Positions 5,486 through 20,500 of a DNA stretch of 40,580 bases are shown piece after piece (position 1 is the first letter of the stretch; the number at the start of each line of letters is the position of its first letter). A program made the translations under genes and the position numbers. Below the pieces are notes generated by a model. It saw only the letters and a program-made list of their open reading frames with translations, did not search any database and was not told the DNA's origin. Source of the stretch: Pseudomonadota bacterium (GTDB lineage Bacteria; Pseudomonadota; Gammaproteobacteria; Competibacterales; Competibacteraceae); contig JAFEGB010000149.1 in assembly GCA_018240295.1 (NCBI GenBank), positions 1 through 40,580 on the forward strand, in the 5' to 3' direction.

Positions 5486-6661
5486 TCAGCCCCGCTCGAC
5501 GGCGACGGCGGTCGCCTCGCCACCGCCGATGCACAGCGTCGCGATGCCGCGCCTGAGTCCGTGCCGCTGCAGCGCCGCGATCAGCGTCACCAGCAGGCGC
5601 GCACCGCTGCAGCCGATCGGGTGGCCGAGCGCGCAGGCACCGCCGTGGACGTTGACCTGCGCGTGCGCGAGGCCGAGCTCGCGCAGCGCCGCGATGGCGA
5701 TCACGGCAAAGGCTTCATTGATCTCCCAGAGATCCACGTCGGCGATGCGCCAGCCGATGGCCGCGCAGAGCTTGCGCACGGCCGCGGCCGGCGCGTCCGT
5801 CCAGCCGCGCTGTGCCTGCGTGGCGTGGCCGCGGATGCGGGCGAGCACCGGCAGCCCGAGGTTCGCCGCCGCGCTGGCGCGCATCAGCACCAGCGCAGCC
5901 GCCCCGTCGGCGATGGCGCTGGCGTTGCCGGCGGTGACGCTGCCATCGGCGCGGAACACCGGCGGCAGCCGGGCGATGCGTTCGGCCCGTGCGTGCAGCG
6001 GATGCTGGTCGACATCGACCCAGGTCCCGCCGCCCCGCTCCGGCACGGCGCAGCCGCTGATCTCGCCGGCGAAGGCACCCTCGTCGATCGCCGCGCGGGC
6101 GCGGCGCAGCGATTCGAGCGCCCAGGCATCCTGATCCTCGCGCGGGCAGCCGATCGCCGCGGCGCAGTCCTCGGCGTATTCGCCCATCCGCCGGCCGGGT
6201 TCGAACGGGTCTTCGAGGCCGTCGGTGAACAGGTGATCGAGCAGTTGCCCGTGGCCGAGCTGCAGGCCGGTGCGTGCCTTCGGCAGCAGGTAGGGCGCGT
6301 TGCTCATCGATTCCATGCCGCCTGCGACCGCCCGCTGCAGGCTGCCGGCGAGCAGGCCGTCGTGCGCGAGCATCACGGCCTGCATGCCCGAGCCGCAGAC
6401 CTTGTTGACCGTCGTGCACGGCACCGACCACGGCAGGCCGGCTGCGATCGCCGCCTGCCGGGCGGGCGCCTGACCGAGGCCGGCGCTCAGCACGCAGCCC
6501 ATGAACACGGCATCGATGGCCTGCGCGTCGACGCCGGTCCGCGTGACGGCGGCGCGGATCGCCACGGCACCGAGTGCGGGGGCGCTGAGGGCCGACAGCG
6601 CGCCGCGGAATTCGCCGAGCGCGGTGCGCGCCTGGCCGACGATGACGACCGGGTCCTTCAC
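5486..6661 (-). CDS. Acetyl-CoA C-acyltransferase (thiolase)
   Basis: Thiolases join or cleave acyl-CoA and acetyl-CoA. All catalytic parts are present: nucleophile Cys89 in VNKVCGSGMQ, His347 in GHPIG and Cys377 in CIGGGEATA, plus NEAFA. The length (391) is normal. An unusual detail is extra cysteines around the His loop (GGACALGHPIGCSGAR), where most relatives have alanine. The start is GTG. It lies 19 bp after the liuA stop, so it is translated from the same message. That context suggests cleavage of acetoacetyl-CoA from leucine degradation, though a general role in fatty-acid breakdown is possible. Confidence 0.92.
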   Translation of the reverse strand: MKDPVVIVGQARTALGEFRGALSALSAPALGAVAIRAAVTRTGVDAQAIDAVFMGCVLSAGLGQAPARQAAIAAGLPWSVPCTTVNKVCGSGMQAVMLAHDGLLAGSLQRAVAGGMESMSNAPYLLPKARTGLQLGHGQLLDHLFTDGLEDPFEPGRRMGEYAEDCAAAIGCPREDQDAWALESLRRARAAIDEGAFAGEISGCAVPERGGGTWVDVDQHPLHARAERIARLPPVFRADGSVTAGNASAIADGAAALVLMRASAAANLGLPVLARIRGHATQAQRGWTDAPAAAVRKLCAAIGWRIADVDLWEINEAFAVIAIAALRELGLAHAQVNVHGGACALGHPIGCSGARLLVTLIAALQRHGLRRGIATLCIGGGEATAVAVERG

Positions 6662-6680
6662 GGTGAGGGCCGGGCGCGGT

Positions 6681-7862
6681 TCAGGCGGTTTCTTCGAACA
6701 GTTCGCGGCCGATCAGCATGCGGCGGATCTCCGAGGTGCCGGCGCCGATCTCGTAGAGCTTGGCGTCGCGCCACAGCCGCCCGGCCGGGTAGTCGTTGAC
6801 ATAGCCGTTGCCGCCGAGGATCTGGATGGTTTCGCCGGCCATCCAGGTGGCTTTCTCGGCGGCGTAGAGGATCGCGCCGGCGGCATCCTTGCGCAGCGAG
6901 CGCACGTGCTGGTCACCGAGGCGGTCGAGCGCCTGGCCGAGCGCGTAGACGTAGGCGCGGCAGGCCGACAGCGTCGTGTACAGATCGGCGATCTTGCCCT
7001 GCATCAGCTGGAACTCGCCGATCGCCTGACCGAACTGGCGGCGTTCGTGCAGGTAGGGCACGGCCACGTCCATGCAGGCCTGCATGATGCCGAGCGGTCC
7101 GGCGGCGAGCACCGCGCGTTCGTAATCGAGTCCGGACATCAGCACCCGTACACCGTTGCCGACGCCGCCGAGCACGTTGTCTACGGGCACCTCGCAGTCG
7201 TTGAAGAACAGCGGATAGGTGTTCGAACCGCGCATGCCGAGCTTGTCGAGGTGCGGGCCATGGCGGAAGCCCGGCATGTCCTTCTCGAGGATGAAGGCCG
7301 TGAGGCCGCGCGCGCCGGCATCCGGGTCGGTCTTCGCATAGACGATCAGCGTGTCGGCATCGCCGCCGTTGGTGATCCACATCTTCGCGCCGTTCAGCAC
7401 GAAGTGATCGCCGCGGCGCTCGGCGCGCAGGCTCATTGCCAGCACGTCGGAGCCGGCACCGGGTTCGCTCATCGCCAGCGCGCCGACGTGCTCGCCGCTG
7501 ATCAGCTTCGGCAGGTAGCGGGCCTGCTGGGCCGCGCTGCCGTTGCGGCGGATCTGGTTCACGCAGAGATTCGAATGCGCCCCGTAGGACAGGCCGACGG
7601 CAGCCGAGGCACGCGAGATTTCCTCCATCGCCACCATGTGCGCGAGATAGCCCATGCCGGCACCGCCGAAGTCCTCGGGTGCGGTGATGCCGAGCAGGCC
7701 GAGTTCGCCGAGCCGGGGCCAGAGATCGGCCGGAAAGCGGTTGTCGCGATCGATCGCCGCGGCACGCGGGGCGATCTCGGCCTGCGCGAAGGCGCGCACC
7801 GTGTCGCGCAGGGCATCGATGGTGTCGCCGAGCGCGAAGTTCAGGGAGGGCAGTTCGATCAT
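6681..7862 (-). CDS. liuA: Isovaleryl-CoA dehydrogenase
   Basis: This FAD enzyme oxidises isovaleryl-CoA to 3-methylcrotonyl-CoA in leucine catabolism and passes electrons to ETF. The 393-residue protein has the acyl-CoA dehydrogenase signatures ([28 protein letters not shown]). The catalytic base is Glu248 within SGLDYERA, the position characteristic of isovaleryl-CoA dehydrogenases rather than medium-chain enzymes, whose Glu is near the C-terminus. [14 protein letters not shown] is typical of the liuA group. GGAG stands 7 bases before the ATG. The usual partners (liuB, liuC, liuD, liuE) are not beside it. A MerR regulator lies upstream, and a dyad operator precedes the gene. Confidence 0.94.
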
Positions 7863-9156: not shown

Positions 9157-10965
9157 ATGGGTGTGGCCGAGAAATTCGAAATCCAGGTTCCCGATCCGCT
9201 GGCGATCACCTCGACGCTGCACGACATCGTCGCCAGCGGGGATCGTCTGATCGGCAGTCTGTTCCGTGAGCGCATCCGCAAGCCGGTGCGCGTGCCGGAG
9301 TGGCTCGGCGATGAACTCGGCATCGGTCGCGCCTTCGGCGAGGCGACGCTGCGCCTGTGGCGCGATCCGCTGAAGCTGCTCGACCGGCAGACGGCGCTGT
9401 GGGTCGACAGCCTCGATCTGTGGGCCAGGACCTGCAGCGCGCTGTCCGGCACCCGCGTCAGCCCGATCATCCAGCCCGAACGCGGCGACCGCCGCTTCAA
9501 GGACGAGGCCTGGACCGAATTCGCGGTCTTCGATCACATCAAGCAGAGCTATCTGCTGAGCGCCCGCTGGCTGCTGGAAACCATGAAGGGCGTCGAGGAC
9601 ATCGACGAGCAGCACGCGCGCAAGGTCGAGTTCTACACGCGCCAGCTGATCGACGCCCTCGCTCCGACCAACTTCGCGCTGACCAACCCCGAGGCGCTGC
9701 GCGAGATCTTCCGCACCGGCGGCGAAAGCCTGCTGCGCGGGCTGCGCAACCTGATGCGCGACATCGAGCGCGGCAAGGGCCGGCTCAGCATCCGCATGAC
9801 CGACCTCGACGCCTTCACGCTCGGCGACAACATCGCGACGACGCCCGGCTCGGTCGTGTTCCAGAACGACATGATGCAGCTGATCCAGTACGCGCCGCTC
9901 GGCGACACGGTGCGCAGGCGGCCGCTGCTGATCGTGCCGCCGTGGATCAACAAGTTCTACATCCTCGACCTGCGCGACAAGAACAGCTTCATCCGCTGGG
10001 CCGTCGCGCAGGGCAACACGGTGTTCGTGATCTCCTGGGTCAATCCGGATGCCAGCTACGCGGCCCGCGGTTTCGATGATTACCTCGAACACGGCATCAC
10101 GGCGGCGCTGCAGGCCATCGAACGGGCGACCGGCGAGCGCGAGGTCAATGCCGTCGGCTACTGCCTCGGCGGTACGCTGCTGTCGGCGAGCACGGCCTGG
10201 TATGCGGCTGGCGATCATCAGCCGATCGCCAGCACCACGCTGTTCACGACCATGCTCGATTTCGCCCGGCCCGGCGAGCTGGAAGTGTTCATCGACGACC
10301 AGCAGCTCGATGCCATCGAGAGGCGCATGCAGAAGCAGGGCTATCTCGACGGCGCCGAGATGGCGTCGACCTTCAACATGCTGCGCGCCAATGACCTGAT
10401 CTGGTCATTTGCGGTCAACAACTACCTGCTCGGCAAGGATCCGTTTCCGTTCGACCTGCTGTATGGGAACTCGGATTCGAAGCGCATGCCGGCGGCGATG
10501 CACAGTTTTTATCTGCGCAACATGTATCAGCACAACCGCCTGCGCGAGCCCGGCGGCATCACGCTGTGCGGCCGGCCGATCGACCTGCATCAGGTGCGCA
10601 CGCCGGTGTATTTCCTGTCGGCGGTCGAGGACCACATCGCGCCGTGGAAATCCACGTATGCCGGCACGCGCCTCTTCGGCGGGCCAGTGCGTTTCGTGCT
10701 CGGCGGTTCCGGGCACATCGCCGGTGTCATCAACCCGCCGGCCGCGAAGAAGTACGGCTATCTGACCAGTCCGCGTCTGGAGCTCGACGCCGACGAGTGG
10801 CTGGCCACGGCCACGCAGACCGCCGGATCGTGGTGGCCGGACTGGGATGCCTGGCTGGATCAGCAGGATGCGACGCGCGTACCGGCACGCCACGCTGGCG
10901 ATGGTGCGCTCGCCGTGCTAGAACCGGCTCCGGGCAGCTACGTCAAGCGCCGGCTCGCGCGCTGA
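9157..10965 (+). CDS. phaC: Class I poly(3-hydroxyalkanoate) synthase PhaC
   Basis: PhaC polymerises (R)-3-hydroxyacyl-CoA into storage polyester on the granule surface. The 602-residue protein has the N-terminal PhaC domain and the alpha/beta-hydrolase core. The lipase-like box GYCLGG contains nucleophile Cys336. Asp492 (VEDHIAP) and His520 (GGSGH) complete the triad. Length and the lack of a phaE or phaR partner indicate class I, specific for short-chain monomers. The gene is alone, with its own terminator; phaA and phaB are not adjacent, although a biosynthetic-type thiolase lies 10 kb away. The palindrome upstream suggests control by the LiuR-type regulator. Confidence 0.96.
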   Translation: MGVAEKFEIQVPDPLAITSTLHDIVASGDRLIGSLFRERIRKPVRVPEWLGDELGIGRAFGEATLRLWRDPLKLLDRQTALWVDSLDLWARTCSALSGTRVSPIIQPERGDRRFKDEAWTEFAVFDHIKQSYLLSARWLLETMKGVEDIDEQHARKVEFYTRQLIDALAPTNFALTNPEALREIFRTGGESLLRGLRNLMRDIERGKGRLSIRMTDLDAFTLGDNIATTPGSVVFQNDMMQLIQYAPLGDTVRRRPLLIVPPWINKFYILDLRDKNSFIRWAVAQGNTVFVISWVNPDASYAARGFDDYLEHGITAALQAIERATGEREVNAVGYCLGGTLLSASTAWYAAGDHQPIASTTLFTTMLDFARPGELEVFIDDQQLDAIERRMQKQGYLDGAEMASTFNMLRANDLIWSFAVNNYLLGKDPFPFDLLYGNSDSKRMPAAMHSFYLRNMYQHNRLREPGGITLCGRPIDLHQVRTPVYFLSAVEDHIAPWKSTYAGTRLFGGPVRFVLGGSGHIAGVINPPAAKKYGYLTSPRLELDADEWLATATQTAGSWWPDWDAWLDQQDATRVPARHAGDGALAVLEPAPGSYVKRRLAR

Positions 10966-11133: not shown

Positions 11134-11172
11134 TAAAAAAATCCGGGTTCCGCGTGAACGGAAAACCCGGAT
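11134..11172 (-). terminator. Intrinsic terminator ending the small secreted-protein array
   Basis: Read on the minus strand, the stem ATCCGGGTT..CCG/CGG..AACCCGGAT (11141-11172, two-base bulge) is followed by a run of seven T. It lies 28 bp after the stop of the last array gene and closes that transcription unit. It stands back to back with the phaC terminator. Confidence 0.9.
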
Positions 11173-11199
11173 CGGGAGAAAGGAAGTCAGGCAGGGCGA

Positions 11200-11469
11200 T
11201 CAGCAGACGCCGGCGTGGCTGTTGCTGCCGTCGCGCGGATTCAGCGCATACGGCTCGACGCAGAATTCCGTCCCGCTGCCGGTTGCGCGCATGCGTTCAT
11301 CGATCGACGCAGCCGTGCTCATCCCGTACGGGTTCGGCTGCTTGTACAGGTAGTCGCTGGCGTTCGGGTTCCAGTCCGGACGCGGATAGGAGTCGCTGTC
11401 GCCGGCATGGGCAGCCGTGGCGGCGGCAAGGGTCAGCAGGCTGGCGGCGATGGCGGTCTTCAGATTCAT
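11200..11469 (-). CDS. Small secreted cysteine-terminal protein, array member E
   Basis: 89 residues. A standard Sec signal peptide (MNLKTAIAASLLTLAAATAA, cleavage after AHA) leaves about 67 mature residues. The mature part shares two motifs with its neighbours: YPRPDWNPNASD near the start, and ERMRATGSGTEFC towards the end. It then has 18 residues and a final Cys as the very last residue (SHAGVC). The two cysteines are the only ones in the mature protein and probably form a disulfide. GAGGA stands upstream of the ATG. I do not recognise the family. It is nearest to member C, with an almost identical signal-peptide coding sequence, indicating recent duplication. Confidence 0.85.
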   Translation of the reverse strand: MNLKTAIAASLLTLAAATAAHAGDSDSYPRPDWNPNASDYLYKQPNPYGMSTAASIDERMRATGSGTEFCVEPYALNPRDGSNSHAGVC

Positions 11470-11544
11470 GGCAGTGTCCTCGTGAGGCTTTCAGGCGGCA
11501 GGGCCGGCGCGGGCGACCCGGACCCGCGCCGTCATGGATGCGGA

Positions 11545-11829
11545 TCAGCAGGTACCGCCGAGCACGTTGCGGCCACTGCTCGGCTCCAGCGGGTACAGCG
11601 CCTGCTGGCAGTAATCGAAGCCGCTGCCGGTGGCACGCATGCGCTGGTCAAAGCCGGGGCTGCCGCTCTGCGTGACCGGGGCGCGCTGGTGCATGCCGTT
11701 ACCGGTCTCGGACGGATATTCCGGATAGGCGCCGGGCCGTGACCCGGTGTCGTACCGGTCCATGGCATGGGCAGCACCGGCGATGGACAGGGTCAGCAGG
11801 CTGGCGGCGATGGCGGTCTTGACGTTCAT
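11545..11829 (-). CDS. Small secreted cysteine-terminal protein, array member D
   Basis: 94 residues with the same signal peptide type (MNVKTAIAASLLTLSIAGAA, cleavage after AHA). The N-terminal P-x-W motif of other members is replaced by YPEYPSET. The C-terminal block is kept: FDQRMRATGSGFDYC, 19 residues, then a final Cys (VLGGTC). GAGGA lies 8 bases before the ATG. Between members D and E, an 8-bp hairpin (11506-11530) without a T-run fills the 75-bp gap. Role unknown; a periplasmic or extracellular location is inferred from the signal peptide. Confidence 0.83.
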   Translation of the reverse strand: MNVKTAIAASLLTLSIAGAAHAMDRYDTGSRPGAYPEYPSETGNGMHQRAPVTQSGSPGFDQRMRATGSGFDYCQQALYPLEPSSGRNVLGGTC

Positions 11830-11845
11830 GTCGGAGTCCTCGTTT

Positions 11846-11880
11846 GCCTCGGGGGGAAGGCTCGTGAGCCTCGGGGGGAA
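11846..11880. repeat. Short direct repeat between array members C and D
   Basis: GCCTCGGGGGGAA occurs at 11846-11858 and again at 11868-11880, a period of 22 bp. Between them lies the small palindrome AGGCTCGTGAGCCT. It probably reflects local duplication in the leader of array member D. Confidence 0.6.
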
Positions 11881-11933
11881 CGGAAACCGGCGCTGACAGC
11901 GACTCGCGGTGCGTCTTCAGCGCCGGTACCGGT

Positions 11934-12203
11934 TCAGCAGATGCCGGCGTGGCTGTTGTTGCCGCCGCGCGGATTCAGCGGATACAGCTCGGTGAGGCAG
12001 AAGTCGGTGCTGCTGCCGGTGGCGCGCATGCGCTCGTCGATCGAGGCGTTCGCGGCCCCGAGCGGTGCGGCCGGGCGGTGCAGGTGATCGCTGGTGGTCG
12101 GATCCCAGGACGGCTGCGGATAGGCATCGCGCTCGCCGGCATGGGCGATCGTGGCGACGGAAAGGGTCAGCAGGCTGGCAGCGATGGCGGTCTTGAGGTT
12201 CAT
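11934..12203 (-). CDS. Small secreted cysteine-terminal protein, array member C
   Basis: 89 residues; signal peptide MNLKTAIAASLLTLSVATIA with cleavage after AHA. The mature protein has YPQPSWDPTTSD, then DERMRATGSSTDFC, a 19-residue spacer (LYPLNPRGGNNSHAGI) and a final Cys. Member E is its closest relative: the ends SHAGIC and SHAGVC, and the motif ASIDERMRATGS, are shared. A GAGAAA lies upstream of the ATG. The protein is glycine-, proline- and asparagine-rich, with no membrane segment after the signal. No function can be assigned. Confidence 0.85.
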   Translation of the reverse strand: MNLKTAIAASLLTLSVATIAHAGERDAYPQPSWDPTTSDHLHRPAAPLGAANASIDERMRATGSSTDFCLTELYPLNPRGGNNSHAGIC

Positions 12204-12330
12204 GGTGGTTTCTCGTCTCTCGGGTGGGTTCGCGGGCTTGGATTCCCGGGGCTTGCAGGGCGATATGCGCTGCAGGGAGCGCGGCGGATGCGGCCGGGGC
12301 GGAATTTTTCCGGCCGGCCGCCGGCAGGGC

Positions 12331-12645
12331 TCAGCAGAAGCCGGTTGCGCCGCTGCGCTCGCGCTCGGATTCGTTCAGGAACACGTTGCAGAAGGTCGTG
12401 TCGTCGCCGACGCGACCGTTGTCGGCCGCCGGCCGGCGCGCCGGAGCCGCGTCCGGACTCGTCAGCGTCGGCAGGGCGGGGTCGGTGTCCCGCAGCGCCG
12501 GCGGCAGCTGCGGGGCGAGCAGCGCGGCGTCGCGGGACGGGACGGCGGCAGGCCCGGCGGCGAGGGCGATGCTGCCGACGGCACTCGCGAGCGCAAAGGC
12601 TGCGGGCAGGACGGCGCGGGCCAGGGAAGGGGCGAAACCTCGCAT
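12331..12645 (-). CDS. Small secreted cysteine-terminal protein, divergent array member B
   Basis: 104 residues. The N-terminus (MRGFAPSLARAVLPAAFALA, cleavage probably after SIALAAG) is a signal peptide of a different sequence from its neighbours. The mature part is proline/alanine-rich and lacks both the P-x-W and the RMRATGS motifs. It keeps the architecture TTFC, 17 residues, ATGFC at the very end. It is therefore a distant relative or a convergent member of the same array. GAGG lies about 9 bases before the ATG. Confidence 0.7.
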   Translation of the reverse strand: MRGFAPSLARAVLPAAFALASAVGSIALAAGPAAVPSRDAALLAPQLPPALRDTDPALPTLTSPDAAPARRPAADNGRVGDDTTFCNVFLNESERERSGATGFC

Positions 12646-12753
12646 GATTGGTACCTCGCAGAGGCAGTCCGTCGGGCGGGTAACGCCTGCTCCGATGCCG
12701 CTGCCGCGGCAAAGGTTCCCGCATCGGCCGGCGTGAACCGCTGCGGGAGCCGT

Positions 12754-13035
12754 TCAGCAGGCCTGCAGGGATGCATTGCGCCCGGCGTTCGGGTTCAGCG
12801 CGACGCGTGCCGCGCAGAGCTCGTGGCCGCTGCCGGTCGCGCTCATGCGTGCCTCGAAGCGGGTCATCGCGGCCGGAGCCTGCGACAGGCCGATCGGGCT
12901 GCCGTACACCGTCTGCTCAGGATTCCAGGACGGCATCGGCAGGCTGTCGGCTTCGCTGGCCAGCGCATTGACGCTGCCGGCGGCGGCAAAGCTGATCAGG
13001 GCGGTGGCGATCAGGGTGCGGATGTTCAGGTTCAT
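12754..13035 (-). CDS. Small secreted cysteine-terminal protein, array member A (first gene)
   Basis: 93 residues. The ATG at 13035 is preferred to one nine bases upstream because GGAG then has proper spacing. The signal peptide (MNLNIRTLIATALISFAAAG, cleavage after NALA) is followed by LPMPSWNPEQTVYGSP, RFEARMSATGSGHELC, an 18-residue spacer with LNPNAGRN, and a final Cys (SLQAC). It shares the P-S-W-[ND]-P and RM-x-ATGS motifs with C and E. As the first gene it follows a 361-bp gap that holds a sigma-54-like site and a dyad. Confidence 0.82.
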   Translation of the reverse strand: MNLNIRTLIATALISFAAAGSVNALASEADSLPMPSWNPEQTVYGSPIGLSQAPAAMTRFEARMSATGSGHELCAARVALNPNAGRNASLQAC

Positions 13036-13338
13036 GGTGCTCATCTCCGGTTCGGACTTCAGGGCAGGCGGATGGGATGGCGGCGGGCTTGCCGCGTCCG
13101 CAGCCGGCGCCTTCGGGCGTCCGGGCTGGGATGAACCGGTATGAGCAGGAGTGATGCCAGCCGGGGAAAAGCCGGTGTTCATTTCATCAGGTTTCTGATG
13201 TGGCTGGATTTTTTTGAGTGGATGGCAGCCGTTTTTCCCTCGCCGGCTGCGGGGCTCCCGGCCGTTGCCGCTGCCGGCCACGGCATGTCGCGGCGGCGGC
13301 AGTGGCCGGTCGCGGCCCGCGACCCGGCCGGGGCATGC
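13036..13338. other. Leader and promoter region of the secreted-protein array
   Basis: No gene is visible. Besides the sigma-54-like site at 13141-13160, the stretch has a perfect 6-bp dyad (CATCAG-GTTT-CTGATG, 13185-13200) and a run of seven T at 13210-13216 that is too far from the hairpin to be a terminator. I searched for NifA-type TGT-N10-ACA and found none. Confidence 0.5.
13141..13160 (-). promoter_or_regulatory. Sigma-54-like -24/-12 site upstream of the secreted-protein array
   Basis: Read on the minus strand, CTGGCATCACTCCTGCTCAT has the GG-N10-GC spacing, TGGCAT at -24 (5 of 6) and CTGCT at -12 (4 of 5). Transcription would start near 13133, giving a leader of about 98 nt. A dyad (13185-13200) lies about 60 bp upstream of that start and could bind an activator. 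In GC-rich DNA such matches also arise by chance. Confidence 0.38.
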
Positions 13339-13367
13339 AAAGAAAAACCCCGGCACGGGGGCCGGGG
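13339..13367 (-). terminator. Intrinsic terminator of the nifV-fix operon
   Basis: On the minus strand, a perfect 7-bp stem (CCCCGGC/GCCGGGG, 6-base loop) is followed by TTTTTCTTT. It stands about 30 bp after the stop of the ferritin-like gene. No comparable terminator is seen inside the operon. Confidence 0.87.
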
Positions 13368-13396
13368 CGATCGGAGGCGGAGTGCGCGGGGCGGGA

Positions 13397-13855
13397 TCAG
13401 ACCGACGCGCGCCGCTCCAGCCGGGCGAGCAGCGCGTTGACGTGGCCGACTTCCTCCTCGGCGAAGGATTCGGCGAAGCCGCGCACCTCGGCATCCGAGG
13501 TCTCGCGCGCGACGCGCCGGTAGAAGGCCTCGCTGCTGCGCTCGGCTTCGAGCGCGAGTTCCAGTGCCGCGGTCACGTCGAGGAAGCTGTCGACGCCGGC
13601 CCAGGCGGCGTCCTCGGGGCTTTCGCCCGGCCCCCATTCGTAGCCGTCCTCGGGCGGCTGCTCGACATCGCGGAACCCCGCGCGGTCGATGGCCTCGGCC
13701 TGATGCATGCGGGCGAACTCGGCCATCTGCCGGAAAAAGGCCGCGACCTCGGCGTCACCGAGCGCGCTCATCGAGTTGGCCAGGTCTTCGTAGCGCCCGG
13801 CGGCCGAGCCTTCGAGCGCGATCGCGTGGGCGAGAAAACGGTTGATGCAGTCCAT
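13397..13855 (-). CDS. Ferritin-like (rubrerythrin-type) diiron domain protein
   Basis: The ATG at 13855 is chosen because GGTGGAG stands 6 bases upstream; an in-frame ATG at 13900 would add 15 residues (Y-P-T-V-E-Y-F) but has no SD. The 152-residue, all-helical protein has the spaced glutamates of a four-helix diiron bundle: Glu15 in IALEGSAAGRYE, the MHQAEA helix, ALEAERSSEAFY, and EEEVGHVNALL with its Glu and His pair. Such proteins handle peroxide or iron. As the last gene of the nif/fix operon, it may protect nitrogenase or supply iron; that is inference. Confidence 0.82.
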   Translation of the reverse strand: MDCINRFLAHAIALEGSAAGRYEDLANSMSALGDAEVAAFFRQMAEFARMHQAEAIDRAGFRDVEQPPEDGYEWGPGESPEDAAWAGVDSFLDVTAALELALEAERSSEAFYRRVARETSDAEVRGFAESFAEEEVGHVNALLARLERRASV

Positions 13856-13970
13856 GAAGTACTCCACCGTCGGGTAGGAAAGGCGCGTCGCCGCGGCCAT
13901 GGATCGGCCGGCGACGGAAGCGGGACCGGGCGTGAGGATACCGGTCCAGCGTTTCGATTCGTGGTCCGGC

Positions 13971-14525
13971 TCAGCCCGCTGCGCTGCAGGCCCGGGCCAG
14001 ATCGGTGATCACCGAGCCGCCGACCTGGTCCTGCGGATCCAGCTCGTGCAGCTTCTCCAGCAGCGGTCCGGCGGCCTTCAGGCCGTGCAGCCGCAGCCGG
14101 ATGAAGGCCAGCGCCTTCAGGCTGAACAGATAGAAGCGGCCCGGGCCGTCGGACCAGTCCGCGGTCCAGTGGCGCAGTTCGTTCCAGCGCACCGGGAAGC
14201 CGCCCTGGCGGGCCGACTCGCCGAGCGCCATCAGCGCCACGCGTTCGGCATCGACCAGCCGCTTCTGGTGGAACAGGAACTTGTACAGCGCGAAGTACAC
14301 GGGCAGATGATTCGGTGCCAGCGCGTGCGCACTCCAGAGCAGGAACTCGCGGCGGGCCGGCTCGACGCCAGCCGCCGCCTGTTCGAGGTAGGCACCGGCA
14401 ACCGAGGCGGCATCGTCCGCTGCCGCCTCGCGCAGCGCCCGGAAGCCGGCGCCATCGGTGACGCCGAGTCCGAACGGGTACTCCGCGAGCGGGACCGCAC
14501 GCAGCGGCAGGGACGGGGTCAGCAT
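13971..14525 (-). CDS. Helical-repeat (TPR-like) protein of the fix operon, function unknown
   Basis: The 184-residue protein lacks a signal peptide and reads as a series of amphipathic helices. The middle (HALAPNHLPVYFALYKFLFHQ, LVDAERVALMALGESA) looks like TPR repeats. The C-terminal half has FSLKALAFIRLRLHG and LLEKLHELDPQDQVGGSVI. It starts 10 bp after the fixX stop and has GAGGA upstream, so it is cotranscribed with fixABCX. The position suggests a scaffold or assembly role for the Fix or nitrogenase proteins, but nothing in the sequence proves it. Confidence 0.8.
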   Translation of the reverse strand: MLTPSLPLRAVPLAEYPFGLGVTDGAGFRALREAAADDAASVAGAYLEQAAAGVEPARREFLLWSAHALAPNHLPVYFALYKFLFHQKRLVDAERVALMALGESARQGGFPVRWNELRHWTADWSDGPGRFYLFSLKALAFIRLRLHGLKAAGPLLEKLHELDPQDQVGGSVITDLARACSAAG

Positions 14526-14535
14526 GGCCTTGTCC

Positions 14536-14823
14536 TCAGCCGAACTTGAACAGGATGCCGTAGCCGCCGCGCGGGTATTCCCAGGCGACGTTGCGGAACT
14601 CCGAGCAGATCACCCGGCAGGTGCCGCATTCCAGGCAGCCGTCGGTGGTCAGCACCACATGCCGGCCGTCCTCGGCCTTGGCGTAGCAGGCGGCCGGGCA
14701 CAGATACGTGCAGTCCTGGGTACCGCATTCCGTGCACTTCTCCTGATCGATGATCTGGATGTGCGGGCGGCCTTCATCGACGCGGTAGCGGTTCTGGAAC
14801 AGCTTTTCCTCGACCTTGCTCAC
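14536..14823 (-). CDS. fixX: Ferredoxin-like protein FixX
   Basis: FixX carries electrons with FixC in the electron-bifurcating FixABCX complex. The GTG at 14823, overlapping the fixC stop (GTGA), is chosen over a GTG 15 bases upstream because GGAGGG stands 8 bases before it. The 95-residue protein has two cysteine clusters: Cys 30, 33, 38, 42 and 46, then 63, 66, 69 and 73 ([11 protein letters not shown]), consistent with [4Fe-4S] centres. [10 protein letters not shown] near the end is typical of FixX. Start-stop overlap indicates translational coupling to fixC. Confidence 0.95.
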
Positions 14824-16115
14824 CGGAATGCCCTCCACAGCTTGTAGGTGTCCTTCATCAGCCCGAACAGCGAGCGGTCCTGCACGAACGCGCCGAGCGC
14901 CGAGCGCTGCTTGGTCTTCTTGTCGACACCGTCGACGCGCAGCATGGTTTCGGCGGCGCGGTTGAGCAGGGTCGGGTAGGTGGTCAGGAACTGCTTCTCT
15001 TCGAGCAGGGCCGGCACGTGCTGGTACTTGCGCAGGTCCTTCATGACGAAGCTGTCGTTGAGCGCCTCGACGTAGGCCTGCAGGTTCGCGGCCGTCGCCG
15101 GCTTGCCGGCGGTCTTCAGCGCGATCAGCGTCTCGGCGGCCAGGCGGCCGCTGGTCATCGCCAGGTTCGAGCCTTCGCGGTGCACGGCATTCACGAAGCC
15201 GGCGGAGTCGCCGACCATCAGCCAGCCGTCGCCGGCGAGCTTCGGCAGCGCCTTGTAGCCGCCCTCGGGGATCAGGTGCGCGGCGTATTCCTTGACCTCG
15301 CCGCCGGCGATCAGCGACTTGATCGACGGGTGGTTCTTCAGGTCTTCGAGCAGCGTGTACGGCGACACGCCCGAGCCCTTGAAGTCCTCCAGCATGCAGC
15401 CGATGCCGATCGCGACCGACTCGCGGTTGGTGTACAGGAAGGCCGTGCCGGCCATGCCGCGGGTGATGGTGCCGGCGATCTCGATGACGACGCCTTCCTC
15501 TTCCTGGATGTTGAAGCGGCTCTCCAGCACGTCCTGCGGCAGGAAGTGGACTTCCTTGACCGCGAGCGCGACGTTCCTCGCCTCGATCTCCTCGCGCAGC
15601 CCGGCCTTGCGGGCCAGCAGCGAGTTGACGCCGTCGGCGAGGATCACGGCATCGGCGTAGATGTCGCCGCCGACGCGGTCGGTGCGCACGCCGACGATGC
15701 GGCCGGCGTCATTCTTCAGCAGCTCCAGCACCGTGGTCTCGTTGATGACCAGCGCGCCGGACTCCCTGACCTTGCCGCTGAACCACTTGTCGAACTGCGC
15801 GCGCAGGATCGTGTAGCGGTTCGGCCGTTCCTCATTGAAGGAGTCGGAGCGGTAGTGCGTACCGACGTGCGACTTGTCCTCCATGATCCAGATGCGCTGC
15901 TCGACGATGTGGCGTTCGAGCGGCGCGTCGTCGCGGAAGTCCGGGATGATGCGCTCCAGCGCATCGGCGTACAGGATCGCGCCCTGCACGTTCTTGGTGC
16001 CCGAGGTCTCGCCGCGCTCGATCTGCAGCACGTTCAGGCCGGCCTTGGCCAGGGTGTAGGTGGCGGCATTGCCGGCAGCGCCGGCCCCGACCACGATGAC
16101 GTCGAATTTTTCCAT
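14820..16115 (-). CDS. fixC: FAD-dependent oxidoreductase FixC (ETF-quinone oxidoreductase type)
   Basis: FixC accepts electrons from FixAB and delivers the high-potential share to quinone. The 431-residue protein starts with the dinucleotide-binding motif [19 protein letters not shown] (residues about 8-26) and has [19 protein letters not shown], the conserved FAD-proximal motif of the family. GGAGA lies upstream of the ATG. Fixed position between fixB and fixX in a nifV-led operon separates it from general ETF-QO, which is larger and carries its own iron-sulfur domain. Confidence 0.96.
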
Positions 16116-16126
16116 GGCGGTCTCCT

Positions 16127-17221
16127 TCAGCCGGCGCGCTTCATCGCCAGACGGGCGCGGCAGGCTGCGGTCAGGGCAGGGAGGATCTGCACCGCATCAC
16201 CGACGATGCCGTAGGTGGCGAAGTCGAAGATCGGGGCCTTGGGGTCCGTGTTGATGGCGATGATGACGTCGGAGGCTTCCATGCCGACGCGGTGCTGGAT
16301 CGCGCCGGAGATGCCGGCGGCGATGTAGAGCTTCGGGCGCACGGTCTTGCCGGTCTGGCCGACCTGGCGGTCCGCACTGAGGATGCCGTTCTGGATCACC
16401 GGCCGGGAGCCGCCGACCTCGGCGCCGAGCACCTCGGCCAGATCCCAGAGCAGCTTGAAGTTCTCGGGCTTGCCGAGGCCGCGGCCGCCGGCAACGATCA
16501 CGTCGGCGTAGGCGAGCTGCGCCTGGTCGGTGGCATCGTCCGGGATGTACGAAAGCAGCTTGGCGATGATGTCGTCCTCGACCAGCTCGACCGGCGCCTC
16601 AAGCACGCGGCCGCTGCGCTCGGGCTGCTGCGCCGGCATCGACATCACGCGCGGACGCACGGTCGCCATCTGCGGCCGGTAGTTCAGCGTCTGGATCGTG
16701 CAGAGCAGCGAGCCGCCGAAGGTCGGACGGGTCGCGGCGAGCGAGCGGTTGTCCGGATCGATCGCGAGTTCGGTGCAGTCGGCGGTCAGGCCGGTCGCCA
16801 GCGTCGTCGCCACGGAACCGGCGAGGTCACGGCCCTGCACGGTGGCGCCGAGCAGCAGGATCTCGGGCTGGAACTGGTTGACGACCGCGGTCAGCGCCTT
16901 CGTGTACGGCTCGTTGCGGTAGCCGGCCAGCACCGGGCTGCGGGTGATGTAGACGAGGTCGGCGCCATAGGTGTGGGCGGTGGCGGCGAAGGCATCGAGC
17001 GGATCCCCGGGGCCGCCGAGCAGCACGCCGGCGAGCTCCACGCCGAGCTTGTCGGCGAGCTTGCGGCCTTCGCCGAGCAGCTCCCACGACACCGGGTGCA
17101 CGGTGCCGCGTTCATGCTCGATGAACACCCACACACCCTTGTACGCGGCCAGCCGCGGGTCCAGTTCGAGTTTCTTGCGGCCGCGCGCTGCGGGGGCGGC
17201 CGGCTTCGGGGCTTCGCTCAT
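16127..17221 (-). CDS. fixB: Electron transfer flavoprotein alpha subunit FixB
   Basis: FixB binds FAD and, with FixA, forms the ETF half of the bifurcating FixABCX complex. The 364-residue protein shows the alpha-subunit C-terminal FAD signature: SRPVIQN, then [18 protein letters not shown] and [11 protein letters not shown] (about residues 273-316). It has a short basic Ala/Pro-rich N-terminal extension typical of Fix versions. It starts 27 bp after the fixA stop, with GGAGA before the ATG. Confidence 0.96.
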
Positions 17222-17248
17222 GTCGGCTATCTCCGGGAGTCGTGGGGT

Positions 17249-18094
17249 TCAGAGCGCGCGGTCGAACAGCTCGCCGTACAGCGGCGCATGCTTCGCGGAC
17301 AGGGTGTCGATGATCAGGTCGGCGATCTCGGTCTGGCTCTTGCCGCCGATGTCGAGCATCTGCGCCGGCACCGACTTCGGCTTCGGCGCGAACACCTTGC
17401 TGACCACGGTCGGCGAGCCCTTCAGGCCGATCTTGCTGATGTCGGTGATGCCGGCGTCGTCCTTGTTCCAGACCGTCAGCGGCGAGCGCGCGGCGCGGAA
17501 CATGTCGGTCATGGTCGCGAAGCGCATCTCGTTGGTGCCTTCGAGCATCGTGATCAGCGCCGGCAGGCGGGTCTTGAGCACCTGCACGCCGCCCTCGGCG
17601 CGCCGCTGCACGGTGATCGTGCGGCCTGCGAGGTCGAGCTCGTCGATCTTCGCGACGTAGGTCAGCAGCTGCAGGTCGAGGCGCTTGGCCACTCCCGGGC
17701 CGACCTGGGCGGTGTCGCCGTCGATCGTCTGCTTGCCGGTGAACACCAGGTCGACCGGCTCCTTCTCGCCGATCTGGCGCAGGGCCTGGGCCAGCGCGCA
17801 CGAGGTCGCCAGCGTGTCGGCACCGGCAAACGCGCGGTCGGTCAGCAGGATCGCCTCGTCGGCGCCGAAGGACAGGGCCTTGCGCAGCGCATCCTCGGCC
17901 TGCGGCGGACCCATCGTGATCACCGTCACCTTGCCGCCGAACTGGTCCTTCAGCCGCAGCGCCTCTTCCAGCGAGAACAGGTCGTAGGGGTTGATGATGG
18001 CCGGGACGCCCTGGCGCATGATGGTGTTGGTGACCGGGTGCACGCGGATCTGCGCGCTGTCCGGTACCTGCTTGATGCAGACGACGATGTGCAT
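17249..18094 (-). CDS. fixA: Electron transfer flavoprotein beta subunit FixA
   Basis: FixA is the beta subunit that holds the bifurcating flavin with FixB. The 281 residues include the ETF-beta start (MHIVVCIKQVPDS), the AIINPYDLFSLEEALRLKD motif, and the signature GKQTIDGDTAQVGPGVA. The C-terminal tail after residue 230 is longer than in respiratory ETF beta and typical of nitrogen-fixation versions. GGAGG precedes the ATG. The gene follows nifW by 49 bp. Confidence 0.96.
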   Translation of the reverse strand: MHIVVCIKQVPDSAQIRVHPVTNTIMRQGVPAIINPYDLFSLEEALRLKDQFGGKVTVITMGPPQAEDALRKALSFGADEAILLTDRAFAGADTLATSCALAQALRQIGEKEPVDLVFTGKQTIDGDTAQVGPGVAKRLDLQLLTYVAKIDELDLAGRTITVQRRAEGGVQVLKTRLPALITMLEGTNEMRFATMTDMFRAARSPLTVWNKDDAGITDISKIGLKGSPTVVSKVFAPKPKSVPAQMLDIGGKSQTEIADLIIDTLSAKHAPLYGELFDRAL

Positions 18095-18143
18095 GGGTGG
18101 CCTCCGGCTCGTCGGGTACGTGGCAGTCGTGGATAAGGGGAAA

Positions 18144-18476
18144 TCAGGTCGCAGGTCGTTCGATGCGTTCGATCTGGTCGAGACCGACGAAGCCCTGGCC
18201 CTGCGCCTGACGGAACACCTTGAAGACCTTCTCGGTGACCGCGTCCGACACGGTGAAATCGAGGTAGGCCTGCACCAGCCGCTCGCGGTAGGCGGCGAAT
18301 TCGTCGGCTTCGGAGAGGTCCGCCTGGACCGGCGAGCGCTTCAGGTAGTCGTGGAAGCGCTTGAGGATGTGCAGGCGGTTGACGTGCACGACGTGCGGGT
18401 CGACGTCGATCTTGAACAGCTCGAAGAATTCATCGGCGGCCGACAGGGTCTGCAGACGATCGCTCAGCGTGCTCAT
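18144..18476 (-). CDS. nifW: Nitrogenase-stabilising/protective protein NifW
   Basis: NifW associates with the nitrogenase MoFe protein and aids its maturation or oxygen tolerance. The 110-residue size is typical. Family features are LSAADEFFELFKIDVDP at the start and HVNRLHILKRFHDYL after it. GAGGAA lies upstream of the ATG at 18476; a longer in-frame reading with upstream starts runs across cysE and is rejected. It sits 11 bp after the cysE stop, so it is in the same operon as nifV. Confidence 0.94.
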   Translation of the reverse strand: MSTLSDRLQTLSAADEFFELFKIDVDPHVVHVNRLHILKRFHDYLKRSPVQADLSEADEFAAYRERLVQAYLDFTVSDAVTEKVFKVFRQAQGQGFVGLDQIERIERPAT

Positions 18477-18487
18477 GGATGGATTCC

Positions 18488-19300
18488 TCAGGAGTGCAGG
18501 GCAGCGGGGTGGGCGGCGGCGGCATGGCGGGCCTGATCGCAGGCATCGCCGCAGTCGGTGCAGGCATGCGGGTGATCGAGTCCGGGGATGGCCGGACCGG
18601 CGGCGGCGAGCCGGGCTTCGAGGTCGTCGATGCGCTGGATCAGGCAGGCGAGCGCACGGCCGACCGGGTCCGGCATCAGGTGGTGATCGAGGTCGATGCC
18701 GTCGGCCCGGGCCGTGTCGCCGCGCGGCACGACGCGACCGGGGATGCCGACGACGGTGGCCGCGGCCGGCACGTCGCGGATCACGACCGAATTCGCCCCG
18801 ACGCGCGCACCGGCGCCGATCTCGATGGCACCGAGCACCTTGGCCCCGGCCCCGACCGTGACGCCGTCCCCGAGCGTCGGGTGGCGCTTGCCGCGCGACA
18901 GACTGGTGCCGCCGAGCGTCACGCCCTGGTACAGCGTCACGTCGTCGCCGATCTCGGCGGTCTCGCCGATCACCACGCCGCAGCCGTGATCGATGAACAT
19001 GCGCCGGCCGATGGTCGCCGCCGGATGGATGTCGATCTGCGTCAGCCCGCGGGCGAGGCCGGCGAGCAGCCGCGCCGTGAAGCGCCACTGGCGGCGCCAC
19101 AGCCCGTTGGCGATGCGGTGCAGGATCAGCGCGTGCAGGCCGGGGTAGGTGGCCAGCACCTCGAAGGCACTGCGCGCGGCCGGATCACGGGCACGGACGG
19201 CGAGCACGTCCTCGCGCAGGCGGGCGAGCAGGCCCGGGCGGACGGTCTGGGTCATCGTCGGGATACCGGCGGCGGACAGGGAATCGGACGGAGCGCGCAT
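18488..19300 (-). CDS. cysE: Serine O-acetyltransferase, nif-associated (CysE/NifP)
   Basis: The enzyme acetylates serine for cysteine synthesis; nif-linked copies supply cysteine for cluster assembly. The ATG at 19300 follows AGGAGG by 7 bases. The 270-residue protein has the hexapeptide-repeat fold, with [21 protein letters not shown] and [21 protein letters not shown]. After about residue 200 comes an unusual tail, ending with [20 protein letters not shown], a Cys/His cluster that could bind metal. It lies 15 bp after the nifV stop. Epimerase-type SATs are shorter, so this resembles the SRPBCC-free bacterial short-type SAT. Confidence 0.92.
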
Positions 19301-19315
19301 CACGAAGCCTCCTGA

Positions 19316-20470
19316 TCAGTTCAGCGTGCCGGCCACGTACGGCCGCGGCGCACGGGTCTCGTGCCAGAAACCGAGCAGTTCGTCGGCGGTCGGTGCGCGC
19401 TTGGTGCTGCCGGCGTGCACGCGGATGCGTCCGAGCAGGCGCTGCACCTCGTCCTCGGCCAGGCGCAGGCCGAGCTCGGCGTAGGCGCGGCGCACCGAGG
19501 CCGTGCCCGAATGCTTGCCGAGCACCAGCCGGTGATGGCGACCGAGACGGGCCGGGTCCAGGCCCTGATAGGTGCGCGGGTCCTTCAGCAGGCCGTCGAC
19601 GTGAATGCCGGATTCGTGCGTGAACACCGCATCGCCGACCACGCTCTTGCCGACCGGCACCGGCCGGCCCGAGGCTTCGGCGACGAGCTGCGAGATCGCC
19701 GGCAGCTGCGCGAGGCGCACGCCGCAGTCGCGGCCGTGCAGCACCGACAGCGCCGTCGCGACCTCTTCGAGCGGGGCGTTGCCGGCGCGCTCACCGAGGC
19801 CGTTGACCGTGGTGCTGACGAAGTCGGCCCCGGCACGCACCGCCGCCAGCGAGTTGGCGGTGGCGAGGCCCAGGTCGTCGTGGGCGTGGATTTCGAGTTC
19901 GATCGCCGTCGCCGCCCGCAGCCGGGTGATGCGCTCGAAGGTGCCGAAGGGTTCGAGCAGGCCGACCGTGTCGGCGTAGCGGAAGCGCCGGGCACCGGCC
20001 GCGGCCGCGGTCGCGGCGATCTCGGCGACGAAGTCCGGATCGGCGCGCGAGGCATCCTCGCCGCCGACGCGCACGTCGTCGAAGCCGGCGTCGCGGGCCA
20101 TCGCCACCATCTGCGCGACGTTCGCGAGCACCCAGCGGCGGTCGCGGCCGAGCTTGAGCTGGATCTGCGTGTCGGAGACCGGCGTCGACAGGTTCACGGC
20201 GCGCACCCCGGTGGCCAGCGCCGCGTCGAGGTCCTTGCGGCTCATCCGGCACCAGGCCACCAGCGTCGTCTGCAGGCCGAGGCCGACGATCGCGCGCATG
20301 TCGTCCTGTTCCTCGGCGCCCATCGCCGGGATGCCGATCTCCAGTTCCTGCACGCCGGCGAGATCGAGGGCGGCGGCGATCGCGAGCTTCTCAGCCCGGT
20401 TGAAGGCCACGCCGGCCGTCTGCTCGCCGTCGCGCAAGGTGGTGTCGTGGATCAGGATGCTGCGGTCCAT
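19316..20470 (-). CDS. nifV: Homocitrate synthase NifV
   Basis: NifV condenses acetyl-CoA and 2-oxoglutarate to homocitrate, the organic ligand of FeMo-co. The ATG at 20470 is chosen because GGAGGA stands 8 bases before it; an ATG 21 bases earlier has no SD. The 384-residue TIM-barrel protein has [15 protein letters not shown] (about residues 9-23), [28 protein letters not shown] and [11 protein letters not shown], all diagnostic of the homocitrate/isopropylmalate synthase family. The nif context separates it from LeuA. It is the first gene of the operon and has a sigma-54 promoter. Confidence 0.95.
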
Positions 20471-20500
20471 GGTTCCGGTCCTCCGGTTCATGGGCAGGAC

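Follow-up and report, generated by a model that had tools for sequence, protein, structure and literature searches.

A run of five small minus-strand genes at positions 11200–13035 of the window (the whole stretch of 40,580 nucleotides that was analyzed) raises the question of what a set of exported proteins, each ending in a cysteine, might do for the bacterium that carries it. The five open reading frames are consecutive and encode proteins of 89–104 residues, each with a signal peptide and with Cys as its last residue, as a preliminary description had reported; we lettered them A to E in the order of transcription. Member A (12754..13035, 93 aa), the first array gene, has a signal peptide running to ...NALA and carries P-S-W-N-P, RMSATGSG, Cys74, and the terminal Cys93. 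Member B (12331..12645, 104 aa) is divergent and has a signal peptide, Cys86, and the terminal Cys104. An AHA cleavage motif is found in each of the other three: member C (11934..12203, 89 aa; PSWDP, RMRATGSS, Cys69, and the terminal Cys89), member D (11545..11829, 94 aa; RMRATGSG, Cys74, and the terminal Cys94), and member E (11200..11469, 89 aa; PDWNP, RMRATGSG, Cys70, and the terminal Cys89). Both motifs noted earlier were recovered, RM[RS]ATGS[GS] in every member except B and P-x-W-[ND]-P in A, C, and E. All five frames end in TGC TGA, and each protein holds exactly two Cys, the first standing 18–20 residues before the last, with the previously described 17–19 residues between them (74/93, 86/104, 69/89, 74/94, and 70/89 in A–E). 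By inspection of the sequences, all five have a hydrophobic N-terminus that includes an A-x-A site; inspection combined with a simple heuristic assigned a Sec-type signal peptide with such a site to A, C, D, and E, and the same four scored for a last-residue Cys with a second Cys 17–21 residues earlier and no others. The mature proteins are acidic and hydrophilic (net charge −1 to −4, GRAVY −0.08 to −0.89). Two AlphaFold2 runs both ended without a fold (pLDDT 51–52), which favors reading the modelled proteins as disordered chains, as the predictions have them.

Chance is excluded as the origin of the array, because conservation of the mature parts extends to unlinked copies and to other genera, where relatives keep the protein frame, because substitutions between relatives are mostly synonymous, because a purine-rich stretch precedes the ATG of each of the five genes, and because only one of 151 ordinary predicted genes (≥150 aa) of the same loci ends in Cys. 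Plus-strand shadow reading frames were rejected, as the minus-strand frames match the conservation and the codon pattern, and so was selenocysteine read-through at TGC-TGA, since three relatives end in TGC-TAA and conservation is lower past the stop codon than ahead of it. Just upstream of member D (window positions 11839–11880) stand two tandem 20-base copies of CTCGTxxGCCTCGGGGGGAA, which duplicate a ribosome-binding-like stretch. Paralogy is clear for A, C, D, and E. Member B, rightly described as divergent with the two-Cys layout, has this layout and its array position in common with the others; homology to them was not recovered by hhalign (probability 0.4%) or by a full-length profile built without B.

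The preliminary description took the family to be undescribed, and our searches bear this out: no convincing match was found in Pfam, NCBIfam, PHROGs, PADLOC, or PDB, none at all among phages, plasmids, and viral contigs, and a literature search on the family returned nothing relevant. The only PDB sequence match below E 0.01, obtained with the sister subfamily introduced below as query, was an adhesin (5my7, E 8e-4), which we judged not homologous, as the match begins in the signal peptide and covers none of the conserved C-terminal ring; a weak EnvC match also begins in the signal peptide and was set aside.

The array itself stands as described, but the family is not confined to it; it spans the order, mostly as single genes. 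Besides B, we found 17 members in 9 of 40 genomes and 4 of 14 genera of the order, which was sampled across two families. A profile of the array recovered two further copies in its own genome (C120:2995-3258 and C5:7806-8093) and two in a congener (G001 C14 and G001 C2), and weak, nearly full-length matches in another genus seeded a wider profile that added six more members from two further genera. Nine members from three other genera probably constitute a sister subfamily, with a C-terminal signature of roughly FND...Q.LS...GFN[QR][QR]...C[DE]L...GF..S.S...C. The two subfamilies are probably joined, at a strength short of proof: subfamily-against-subfamily hhalign gave E 9e-5 and a probability of 59%, resting mainly on the N-terminal part, and the alignment places a tail L-x-P-x-x-G...C in both. 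In a tree of 11 members, one of the eight inner branches was well supported. Near an intact member in another genus (around position 1594, minus strand, of locus L035; G024 contig C66) lies a fragment of a second, decayed copy, so duplication has occurred there too. In samples of the class (369 genomes) and the phylum (398 genomes), matches outside the family were confined to signal-peptide similarity in unrelated proteins and were rejected, and since these runs scored few candidates in each genome, absence beyond the order is not strict. The sole match in a scan of named genomes (L018, a Planctomyces MAG) proved to be an MRATGSG that occurs by chance in a helicase-like reading frame, and an extra match to the C-terminal motif on contig C324 was spurious. 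The comparisons support an undescribed family whose members known so far all fall within the host's own order.

Downstream of the array and convergent with it lies phaC (9157–10965, plus strand); in the congener, which has no array at this place, the genes before phaC look the same and those after it differ. Upstream, on the same strand as the array, is a nifV-cysE-nifW-fixABCX-TPR-ferritin-like cluster (13397–20491, minus strand). An intrinsic terminator after the ferritin-like gene (13347..13368, minus strand) parts the nifV-cysE-nifW-fixABCX region from the array, and another after member E (11140..11173, minus strand) comprises 14 pairs with a bulge followed by a T run (−20.7 kcal/mol, z −2.6). 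Because terminators stand on both sides, the array forms its own transcription unit.

From the gene set, its signal-peptide-like N-termini and Cys layout, the terminator-bounded unit, the spread of the family, and the selection regimes described below, we tentatively propose that these are stand-alone exported proteins in which a variable, disordered spacer leads to a disulfide-closed C-terminal loop, and that they belong to a lineage-restricted family that was locally amplified. The five-gene transcription unit would represent this amplification. Each Sec signal peptide would be cleaved after its A-x-A motif, releasing to the periplasm or beyond a mostly disordered chain of 65–80 residues. 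In the oxidizing envelope the two Cys, 17–21 residues apart, would most likely pair in one disulfide and so close a ring that ends at the C-terminus itself and would usually contain L-x-P-x-x-G. Function may reside in this conserved ring, which would dock to a partner, for example a component of the envelope, a polymer of the matrix, or another cell, and the variable N-terminal half would serve as a spacer free to diverge between paralogs.

The pattern of conservation favors such a ring. The terminal Cys stays in 16 of the 17 members, and in B, with identity to member C down to 20–30%; the exception, in the congener (G001 C14), has six residues after its last Cys. Both Cys are present in 16 of the 17, and the distance between them shifts between the subfamilies, from 17 in the sister group to 18–21 in the array group, which speaks for a ring rather than a fixed site. 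No member exceeds two Cys, and 13 neighborhoods of family copies have no consistent partner gene, both of which count in favor of the proposal. A ring on a variable spacer also fits the selection regimes: relatives in the sister subfamily are under purifying selection, with dN/dS of 0.10–0.46 and third positions changing most, whereas the array paralogs give 0.70 (E/C), 0.76 (E/D), 0.78 (C/D), and 0.89–1.09 with A, and look to have evolved in a relaxed or diversifying manner. The expansion under selection raised in the preliminary description is in this respect weakly supported, as values of 0.7–1.1 fit either regime and do not demonstrate positive selection. The near identity it saw in the signal-peptide DNA of C, D, and E was overstated, at 81–88% nucleotide identity, and gene conversion of the signal-peptide part was rejected because its silent sites are not significantly more alike than those of the mature part. 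Against the ring, the link between the subfamilies comes chiefly from the N-terminal part and from a brief motif in the tail, which weakens the proposal; the second copy in one genome (G033 C134) has lost the first Cys and keeps the terminal one, so the ring is not needed in every copy; and a disulfide by itself does not explain why a stop codon directly follows the Cys in nearly all members.

These last two points bear on the main rival to the ring, an unlikely one, in which the thiol of the terminal Cys links the protein to other molecules or to a substrate, through dimers or through cross-links to the matrix or to other thiols, the first Cys being auxiliary. The terminal Cys, with nothing after it, is placed more strictly than the first, the G033 C134 copy has kept it alone, and cross-linking would be well served by a thiol at the end of a disordered tether. 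The first Cys, however, is kept in 16 of the 17 members at a near-constant distance, a better fit to an intramolecular partner. Less probable again is that the functional group is the encoded C-terminal Cys itself, as a novel type of signal or handle that an envelope enzyme or receptor would read or that would become thiol-linked to the matrix, the array copies placing this one handle on different chains. A C-terminal Cys is the functional residue in pearlins (TglA type) as well, but there it is attached to a scaffold peptide before being modified (PMC12452194), whereas the array genes themselves encode the Cys, along with a signal peptide.

Three further readings each fail at least one test. 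It is improbable that the array encodes secreted antagonistic peptides, Sec-dependent and bacteriocin-like, in the form of diversified tandem copies, each carrying a disulfide ring at its C-terminus. The likeness is to the class IIa bacteriocin pediocin PA-1, a small exported peptide of 44 residues whose last residue, Cys44, pairs with Cys24, 20 residues earlier (PMC5998028); the ring geometry proposed here would be the same, and tandem copies with relaxed or diversifying evolution would be in keeping with such a role. The array chains, however, have only two Cys, are predicted to be disordered, and in their mature form are acidic and hydrophilic rather than cationic and amphipathic; no linked immunity or ABC exporter genes and no sequence similarity to pediocin PA-1 were found for the array, immunity or exporter genes do not recur next to the family copies, and the purifying selection in the sister-subfamily relatives also argues against antagonism.

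A role as accessory proteins of nitrogen fixation is about as doubtful. Six of the seven copies in the array's own genome (B counted) lie just downstream of nif clusters, the array behind nifV-cysE-nifW-fixABCX and the C5 copy behind nifB...nifT. The SIR2-like gene (Pfam SIR2_2) that ends the nifB cluster lies at 6579–7589 of locus L033, and a similar-looking gene stands near nifB in the congener (L059, 11011–11934). A sigma54-like −24/−12 site, TGGCATCACTCCTGCT (13144..13159, minus strand), is found 109–124 bases upstream of member A with a weighted score of 0.92, a score that about 1% of random 300-base stretches reach; no NifA-type upstream site was found with it. A slightly better site precedes nifV and another precedes an unrelated gene, the latter presumably by chance, so the site before A serves as a hint only, suggestive of a promoter of this type, and nitrogen-linked expression of the array can be inferred at most. 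Against a nitrogen-fixation role, the terminator before the array and a strong stem-loop before the C5 copy part both from the nif genes, no other member has an equally good sigma54-like site, and copies in other genomes are not by nif genes, though most of those genomes have nifB; linkage to nif genes is seen in the array's own genome only. At E≤1e-120, fixC also matched only in this genome, with no match in the 38 others of the taxonomic family, which suggests that fixC was acquired in the host or lost elsewhere; the position of the array by nif/fix genes therefore looks recent. Elsewhere the genes around the copies vary, so there is no conserved partner. Three copies adjoin a gene whose product starts MCGRF, as we take SRAP proteins to do. 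In one genome (G016 contig C152) a radical SAM-like gene lies upstream of a member and, directly downstream of it (L103, about 7044–7301, plus strand), an open reading frame for an exported NPCAAK-repeat protein.

Least probable is that the proteins are modified-peptide precursors, one or both Cys being altered in trans by an MNIO (DUF692) enzyme whose gene lies elsewhere. Two MNIO (PF05114) genes are present in the genome (L091 1084–2310 on contig C33, and L092 on contig C340), Sec signal peptides are possible in MNIO substrates, and some precursor genes stand alone (PMC12452194), but each of the two has its own Cys-rich bufferin-like precursor beside it, no family member lies near either, and no EGKCG or bufferin motif is present. 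The earlier statement that no modification enzyme lies beside the array was correct, as both MNIO genes are on other contigs. The array proteins resemble MNIO-modified bufferins (BufA, DUF2282, and relatives) in being small, in containing Cys, and in having Sec signal peptides (PMC12452194), and differ from them in having two Cys instead of many, no linked MNIO or DUF2063 gene, and no family-model match.

The array brings to a nitrogen-fixing, polyhydroxyalkanoate-making lineage an orphan family of exported proteins that none of the searched family libraries contains; the genome carries both phaC and nif genes. A conserved end Cys behind a predicted disordered tether offers a simple, testable chemistry, whether as a ring, a cross-link, or a handle. 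Secreted proteins are poorly known as contributors to aggregate structure and cell interactions in sludge, and if the host belongs, as suspected, to the Competibacter group of sludge bacteria, these proteins could affect the structure of its aggregates or its cell–cell interactions.
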